Assembly (NCBI GenBank): GCA_947650915.1
Contig: CANSWY010000001.1
Coordinates: forward strand, 248,001 to 312,000
DNA: 64,000 nucleotides
Direction of reading: 5' to 3'
Origin: an uncultured Eggerthellaceae bacterium
Lineage (GTDB): Bacteria > Actinomycetota > Coriobacteriia > Coriobacteriales > Eggerthellaceae
Below are positions 6,647 to 63,980 of the stretch, in pieces. Below the pieces are notes generated by a model. It was not told the DNA's origin and searched no databases. It saw only the letters and a list, made by a program, of their open reading frames with translations. Within the stretch, counting starts at the first letter, position 1, and every line of letters begins with the position of its first letter. The translations under genes and the position numbers were made by a program.

Positions 6647-6742
6647 ATGTGCAGAAGGGACGTTCCAAATTGCACATAGGAAATGACGTTGCATGCTGAA
6701 GGGCTGTCCCTATGTGCGATTTGGGACGTCCCTTCTGCACAT
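6647..6742 (+). repeat. Dispersed palindromic element, copy 1
   Basis: Two 34-35-base inverted arms face each other around a loop of about 26 bases. The outer edge reads ATGTGCAGAAGGGACG and the inner edge TTGCACATAGG. The arms differ at a few positions (GACGTTCC against GGGACGTC, and one more in the TTGCA part); both leave G-T wobble pairs when read as + strand RNA. Each arm carries the self-complementary core GGGACGTCCC or a one-base variant. It lies between the HAD hydrolase gene and a fragment duplicated from that gene's end. Confidence 0.9.
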
Positions 6743-6761
6743 CTGTCAGAGGAACAAAGGC

Positions 6762-6827
6762 GATGGGCGTGAATGCATCCGAGAACCCGCTATTGAGCGG
6801 GGCTGGCAGATTCTGGAGTGGGTCTGA
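6762..6827 (+). pseudogene. Remnant of the 3' end of the HAD hydrolase gene
   Basis: Read in frame up to the TGA at 6825-6827, this stretch ends IERGWQILEWV, against RERGWQILEWV at the end of the hydrolase gene (stop at 6553-6555). The last 32 bases, running past the stop codon, differ at only two positions (GGCTGGCAGATYCTGG and onward). Farther upstream the match weakens to DGR...ERGW against DGK...ERGW. There is no start codon or body, so this is a leftover of a duplication or of a deleted paralogue, now separated from the intact gene by palindromic copy 1. The stretch 6828-6971 holds only a possible -10 box (TACAAT at 6918-6923) for the next gene. Confidence 0.7.
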
Positions 6828-35647: not shown

Positions 35648-35663
35648 TCGAGCATGCGTTCGG

Positions 35664-35849
35664 ATGTGCAGAAGGGACGTCCCAAATTGCACCCGCGAGA
35701 TCGTCTGATGTGCAGAAGGGACGTCCCAAATTGCACATAGGAACTGTCTTTCAGTGCTCATCGATTCTTTTCTATGTGCAATTTGGAACGTCCCTTCTGC
35801 ACATCAGGCCATCCAGACATGTGCAATTTGGAACGTCCCTTCTGCACAT
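35664..35849. repeat. Dispersed palindromic element, copy 3 (nested double copy)
   Basis: Four arms are present: A 35664-35691 and B 35708-35743 in one direction, B' 35771-35804 and C' 35819-35849 in the other. B and B' form a complete element with a TTTCAGTGCT loop. A and C' are the outer parts of another element, separated from B/B' by 16 and 14 unrelated bases. A can pair with C', giving a two-storey hairpin, as if one element had entered the loop of another. It lies between azlD and the rplS promoter. Confidence 0.92.
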
Positions 35850-35886
35850 CCTTTTTTGCGTGTGCAATCGGGTCGTGGATTTCTGC

Positions 35887-35915
35887 TTGCCTCTCGGCAA
35901 GGGTAGAGATATACT
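35887..35915 (+). promoter_or_regulatory. Promoter of rplS
   Basis: TTGCCT and TATACT are separated by 17 bp, about 70 bases before rplS, right after the palindromic cluster. A CTTGCC/GGCAAG inverted repeat overlaps the -35 box. Confidence 0.75.
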
Positions 35916-63852: not shown

Positions 63853-63883
63853 AAGGCCCGGTGCCGTTACGGTACCGGGCCTT
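63853..63883 (+). terminator. Hairpin downstream of tRNA-Pro
   Basis: A 14-bp stem (AAGGCCCGGTGCCG with CGGTACCGGGCCTT; one G-T pair) and 3-base loop start 9 bases after the tRNA. No U-run follows; palindromic copy 4 begins two bases later. Confidence 0.7.
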
Positions 63884-63884
63884 C

Positions 63885-63980
63885 ATGTGCAAAAGGGACG
63901 TTCCAAATCGCACATAGAAATAGTCATTCAGCGCTCACGCTCTTTTCCTATGTGCAATTTGGGACGTCCCTTTTGCACAT
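63885..63980. repeat. Dispersed palindromic element, copy 4
   Basis: Arms of 36-37 bases with outer edge ATGTGCAAAAGGGACG and inner edge CACATAGAAA, around a loop with TTCAGCGCT. The three bases after GTGC are AAA on one arm and TTT on the other, a third pairing-preserving variant. One C-A and one T-G mismatch are present. It sits directly after the tRNA-Pro hairpin. The remaining 20 bases to the window end show nothing. Confidence 0.93.

Follow-up and report, generated by a model that had tools for sequence, protein, structure and literature searches.

An azlD-rplS intergenic palindrome cluster as a probable standard composite of a high-copy REPIN/BIME-like repeat family in an uncultured Eggerthellaceae bacterium

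In the literature consulted, most REP and REPIN families belong to Proteobacteria, with others from a small number of further phyla; our searches found none described for Coriobacteriales-type bacteria. The TIR repeats of TIRYT transposases, subclass 2.1 in PMC6006769, carry the motif GGGGWSAS (PMC3733652, PMC6006769). TIR families form dimers and clusters, and those reported are only moderately abundant (PMC3733652, PMC6006769). CGTC-tagged REPs possess an unpaired CGTC tag at the end, a stem of 8-9 bp and a loop of 4-5 nt (PMC3733652). For the IS200/IS605 elements, single-strand transposition at the replication fork has been shown (PMC6006769).

The window analysed here is a stretch of 64,000 nucleotides (contig CANSWY010000001.1, positions 248,001 to 312,000) from an uncultured Eggerthellaceae bacterium whose genome of about 2 Mb is assembled in 50 contigs. 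The gap between azlD and rplS in the window holds a cluster of four arms (35663-35850, family sense strand minus) which is bounded by the triplets GAT (35663-35665) and ATC (35848-35850). The arms are imperfect palindromes of 27 nt, GTGCRAAAGGGACGTYCCAAATTGCAC, centred on GGGACGTCCC or GGGACGTTCC. Arm A (35666-35692, plus strand), the outer arm on the 3' side of the sense strand, is followed by a 17-nt spacer, CCGCGAGATCGTCTGAT (35693-35709, minus), and by the inner arm B (35710-35736, plus). A loop of 39 nt with ATAG...CTAT ends (35737-35775, minus; 38 nt is standard for the family) separates B from the inverted inner arm B' (35776-35802, minus), after which come an 18-nt spacer, ATGTCTGGATGGCCTGAT in the sense direction (35803-35820, minus), and arm C' (35821-35847, minus), the sense 5' outer arm. 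A degenerate arm stub beyond C', GTGCAATCGGG (35862-35872, minus), was read from the sequence and lies below the scan thresholds.

The initial annotation described two matching outer arms, A and C', enclosing a complete element B/B', and the four arms do stand in the order + + - -, a structure far beyond chance. It also took the outer arms to be partly eroded, which they are not: A equals B exactly, B' equals C' exactly (over 32 nt), and outer and inner arms are equally intact. Inverted arm pairs within the cluster are 97% complementary. When folded as single-stranded DNA the cluster forms one long hairpin (-77.5 kcal/mol, z = -16), and RNA folding gives z = -18; a lone arm folds weakly by itself. 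An Rfam search of the four-arm locus returned only sub-threshold chance matches to unrelated families. The cluster starts 15 nt after the azlD stop codon, its end is 36 nt short of a promoter-like rplS site, and neither gene is broken by it. This likely rplS promoter (TTGCCT, 17 nt, TATACT; 35887-35915, plus) is outside and downstream of the cluster, and its -10 block is conserved in the congener G001.

With up to three mismatches allowed, 1002 copies of the arm are present in the genome, compared with no occurrence of a reversed-pattern control. A census of stretches of ten contigs and seven loci, which together cover 1.167 Mb or about 58% of the genome, yielded 644 arms (control 1) in 210 clusters, and 182 of these clusters contain an inner inverted pair. 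The layouts include >< in 42 clusters, ><< in 40, >><< in 36 and >>< in 32, which corresponds to 42 two-armed clusters, 72 three-armed clusters and 36 four-armed clusters of the azlD-rplS layout; the remaining clusters are mostly longer arrays or single arms. Since the >><< layout recurs across the genome, the arrangement at azlD-rplS represents family architecture and is no local accident. The loop of the inner pair is 36-39 nt long, mostly exactly 38, and its ATAG...CTAT ends are almost invariant.

The outer spacers likewise recur as classes, designated S17a (CCGCGAGGTTGCCTGAT), S17b (ATGTCTGGATGGGCGAT) and S20 (ATAGGATCAGTCTTCCGGAT), which were picked by eye with generous cut-offs; 206 of 237 shuffled spacers fit no class. 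S17a accounts for 68 of the 108 innermost outer spacers on the sense 3' side, and 19 census spacers are S17b. The two spacers at azlD-rplS, previously regarded as unrelated sequence, match classes found in many paralogous clusters: the one next to A is S17a, three edits from the consensus, and the one next to C' is S17b, two edits from the consensus. In the 53 clusters flanked by outer arms on each side, S20 is paired with S17a in 14 or 15 and S17b with S17a in nine, counting either orientation, with eight of the nine oriented as at azlD-rplS. S17a thus has at least two partner classes, and therefore the spacers generally cannot be halves of one loop.

The window contains two further copies, both simple two-arm pairs. 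One (6649-6740, plus) is followed immediately by a degenerate piece (6750-6800) of a module of about 106 nt that is described below. The other (63887-63978, plus) stands directly after a terminator-like hairpin, GGCCCGGTGCCGTTACGGTACCGGGCC (region 63860-63978), and may have inserted at the hairpin base. Arm density differs tenfold between contigs, from 0.17/kb on C1 to 1.67/kb on C8, a range which may be biased by assembly breaks at repeats. A reading of the R/Y variation within arms as RNA covariation was dropped because direct neighbours also share their R/Y state, and subfamily history explains the variation equally well.

A rough gene call places 115 of 124 clusters in intergenic sequence, and in codirectional gaps the median cluster lies 26 nt from the upstream stop and 100 nt from the downstream start. 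Clusters were oriented from the T/C difference between their inner arms, and the leading strand was assigned by GC skew, with which gene direction agrees. In 145 of 162 clusters (145:17, p about 2e-26) the sense strand coincides with the C-rich, lagging-sequence strand; the direction is the same on each of the ten contigs, and the bias persists (46:5, or 46 of 51) where flanking genes converge or diverge and thus give no direction. Insertions of the arm family bear, in other words, a clear replication-strand signature. Pairs less than 3 kb apart have more similar loops than expected (0.744 versus 0.686, or 0.705 when shuffled within contigs). The strand bias and the similarity of neighbours would fit single-strand transposition at the replication fork, and the bias is what a putative strand-specific recognition and cleavage of the single-stranded arm hairpin by a transposase could produce. 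The bias could also reflect selection in part rather than the mechanism of insertion, and selection or local gene conversion could contribute to both patterns.

A comparison of the azlD-rplS gap in related strains had been proposed, and it could be made with the congener, where the gap is syntenic and the element is absent; the congener's gap has diverged too far to give an exact empty site. Of the 299 genomes sampled in the order, only the present one shows the arm family among the matches listed, and a single dissimilar match fell in one of the 298 others; near relatives may be absent from the listing. A related MAG carries nine arm copies, most of them diverged, and searches of viral contigs, phages and plasmids gave no match. 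About 1000 arms in a 2-Mb genome, in a family absent from the congener, point to a recent and strong expansion. Present or past mobility of the element, as suggested earlier, has good support from the number of arms, the empty congener site, the absence of the family from the other genomes sampled and the strand bias; mobility would be read here from genome comparison with one strain representing the species.

We consider it very probable that the azlD-rplS cluster is a member of a species-private, high-copy family of short, non-autonomous mobile repeats of the REPIN/BIME kind, probably spread by a Y1 transposase, in which the four-arm form is a standard composite. The basic unit would consist of two 27-nt imperfect palindromes in inverted orientation, separated by a conserved loop of about 38 nt and delimited by GAT...ATC, and composites would gain outer arms via the recurrent spacers of 17 or 20 nt. 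At azlD-rplS a four-arm composite of this kind most likely either arrived or was built up. The enzyme is most likely a REP/TIR-associated Y1 (HUH) transposase that acts in trans on the folded single-stranded element, with transposition occurring on the lagging-strand template, and copies would be retained near the 3' ends of genes where they do little harm. Copy number, layout, spacer classes, extragenic placement, strand bias and absence from relatives are direct observations, and the enzyme, the single-strand mode of transposition and the sequence of outer-arm addition are inferred.

Composites might instead have formed in place, with arm-plus-spacer units (44-bp period) multiplied at a hairpin through tandem duplication, slippage or template switching, rather than by transposition of ready-made four-arm elements. 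This alternative bears on how the outer arms originated and does not conflict with membership in a mobile family; we regard it as a serious possibility, to which we would give somewhat less than even weight. Runs of <<< and <<<< with 17-nt spacing are present, the outer arms are closer to the adjacent inner arm (23.9 and 24.5 of 27) than to each other (21.8 of 26), and some clusters (C12:36094, L011) have perfectly mirrored private spacers as template switching at a hairpin would give. Identical spacer pairings at unlinked loci, however, are more easily explained by the spread of composites, and the spacer classes differ between the two sides.

The cluster could also serve as a transcription terminator or an RNA element of the azlD 3' end that has been selected at this site. 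Such a role would concern the effect of the cluster and is compatible with a mobile origin, and we think it unlikely. The RNA hairpin is very stable, it is placed between the azlD stop and the rplS promoter, and a run of six T (35852-35857) directly follows the outer stem, so that termination of the azlD transcript is possible; yet a terminator scan calls no standard terminator at azlD-rplS, and T-runs follow only 4-5 of 181 cluster ends. Since such runs are rare at other cluster ends, termination is not a general function of the family, and it was rejected in that role.

Nested insertion, proposed as the simplest reading of the locus, would have the inner pair entering the loop of an older pair A/C'. 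This kind of event is borne out for the family by a cluster elsewhere in the genome (C5:76882) and is not supported at azlD-rplS itself. At C5:76882 the outer arms share a private GCGCAA/TTGCGC variant, absent from the inner arms. Once GAT and ATC are left out, the outer spacers amount to 18 + 20 = 38 nt; this makes up a complete loop, and its first 18 nt are those of the inner loop. The cluster is best read, on its sequence, as a GAT...ATC pair that inserted into the loop of an older pair, and no target duplication accompanies it. Simple pairs are also enclosed by flanking inverted repeats of at least 5 bp more often than expected (6 of 41, null 0.34, maximum 3 in 2000 shuffles), an effect that is not significant when averaged over all clusters. 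In contrast, the azlD-rplS spacers without GAT/ATC total 29 nt, belong to two different classes and are not halves of a 38-nt loop; 36 clusters repeat the four-arm layout, and the outer arms are identical to the inner ones and not older-looking. An intact target, which would be an arm pair with a loop of 28-31 nt, was seen in none of the census clusters. We judge nesting at azlD-rplS improbable; it may also underlie a first four-arm copy which then spread. The other earlier option, independent insertion of two half elements, is not needed to account for the locus. A further reading, in which the arms are immobile sequences maintained by selection and serve as host-protein binding sites or as signals for uptake or segregation, is very improbable, for although high copy number and conserved sequence would suit such signals and the strand bias could reflect function, the arms are absent from the congener and the other genomes sampled, their layout is composite and modular, neighbouring copies are locally similar, and arms have inserted into other repeats.

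Two simple pairs lie within long perfect inverted flanks, one of 30 nt (C3:86832) and one of 17 nt that hold partial arm sequence (GTGCAAAAGG; C5:73216); each could represent insertion into a palindrome or extension of the stem. A second repeat, a module of about 106 nt with three stems and strong covariation, lies between many of the paired clusters. It has 47 matches in this genome (C2:110085-110190, C8:12924-13026, C8:30487-30593, C9:60541-60646 and about 43 more; loci L167-L196) and none in 59 relatives, and for 12 of its 26 base pairs both partners are altered in one or more of eight copies. No Rfam family matches it at the gathering level. Arms occur within 300 nt on both sides in 22 of the 28 copies inspected. 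Four copies have an arm pair at the identical point of one hairpin and may descend from one insertion. It is conceivable, though we hold this only tentatively, that the family is a Y1-type single-strand element that targets the tips of folded hairpins in the lagging-strand template, nesting in its own and other palindromes, and that pairs carry the RNA-like module as a composite unit private to the species.

Seven genes in the genome match models of Y1 or REP-associated tyrosine transposases, some of them below the curated cut-off. Arms were found flanking none of the seven in the 50-contig assembly, in which a further gene could lie in a gap, and the mobiliser is for this reason a putative one. 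The Y1 genes were rejected as direct partners, their flanks containing other repeats and not arms. A decayed Y1 gene on C18 (L092, 3443-3670), which sits amid GTGAGCAAACTCGTTTGCTCACC-type hairpins of another repeat family, was also set aside; an arm pair lies about 210 nt downstream, which is no evidence at such arm density. A different palindromic repeat (TCCGTAGC...GCTACG) borders another REP-type Y1 gene (L044, C1:138031-138375), and the genome may therefore harbour one or more further REP-like families. Insertion sequences with arms as ends were rejected after a 773-kb self-comparison, which revealed few long repeats and no arm-carrying multicopy insertion sequence, and no TnpB/IS605 OrfB was found. 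Hairpins with a GGGAC core, of the same architecture as the arms, occur near 10 of 35 Y1 loci in this genome and its relatives, one of the ten being the arm family itself, compared with 13 of 400 random windows. One such hairpin, TGACAGGGGGACGGTCCAGATGTCA, is of the same design as the arms and adjoins the Y1 locus L043, and one Y1 gene with flanking GGGAC-core hairpins has weak matches, below the cut-off, to an HTH, the domain expected at the C-terminus of the Y1 protein in TIR/TIRYT systems. The arms may thus be TIR-like repeats; their own transposase may have disappeared, may sit in a gap of the assembly or may work in trans.

With its many near-identical copies, some of them in a nested state that can still be read, the family is a good test system. 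The interest of the system is that it tests how REP-type elements pick their targets, and it would further allow tests of local jumping within a replication fork and of composite units that carry other structured sequence.

Among known systems, the arms resemble the MITEs of DNA transposons in being short and non-coding with inverted ends. They differ from MITEs, which derive from DDE transposons, in showing a replication-strand bias, in having no multicopy insertion sequence with arm ends within the 773 kb of self-compared sequence and in lacking a clear target duplication, there being no clear excess of flanking direct repeats at element borders. Like CGTC-tagged REPs, they are present in high copy number, form dimers and have no transposase gene flanked by the repeat (PMC3733652), but the CGTC of the arm is central, within the GGGACGTCCC hairpin, and not at an end. 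The likeness to the TIR repeats of TIRYT transposases lies in the stem-GGGACG-stem architecture of the arms and in the GGGGAC/GGGACG-core hairpins that flank some Y1 genes here and in relatives; unlike TIR repeats, the family numbers about 1000 arms, its motif AGGGACGT is no exact fit to GGGGWSAS and its arms flank no Y1 gene. In comparison with REPINs and BIMEs, the arms have an internal GGGACG core, the composites have quantised spacers of 17 or 20 nt, and the REP 5' tag GTAG or its variant GGAG is absent, the arm flanks being GAT on the outside and ATAG/CTAT on the inside. No cognate RAYT gene flanked by the same repeat was found among the seven Y1 genes. The arms are nonetheless high-copy, extragenic imperfect palindromes within the 20-50 nt range of REP sequences, and the inverted pair recurs with conserved spacing, a loop of 36-39 nt in most clusters, as expected of a replicative unit. 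Like the REPINs and BIMEs associated with RAYT (TnpA_REP) transposases, the family comprises hundreds of extragenic imperfect palindromes, mostly in inverted pairs around a fixed, conserved loop, that form ordered tandem clusters near the 3' ends of genes in a genome with REP-type Y1 genes (PMC3116915, PMC8266576).
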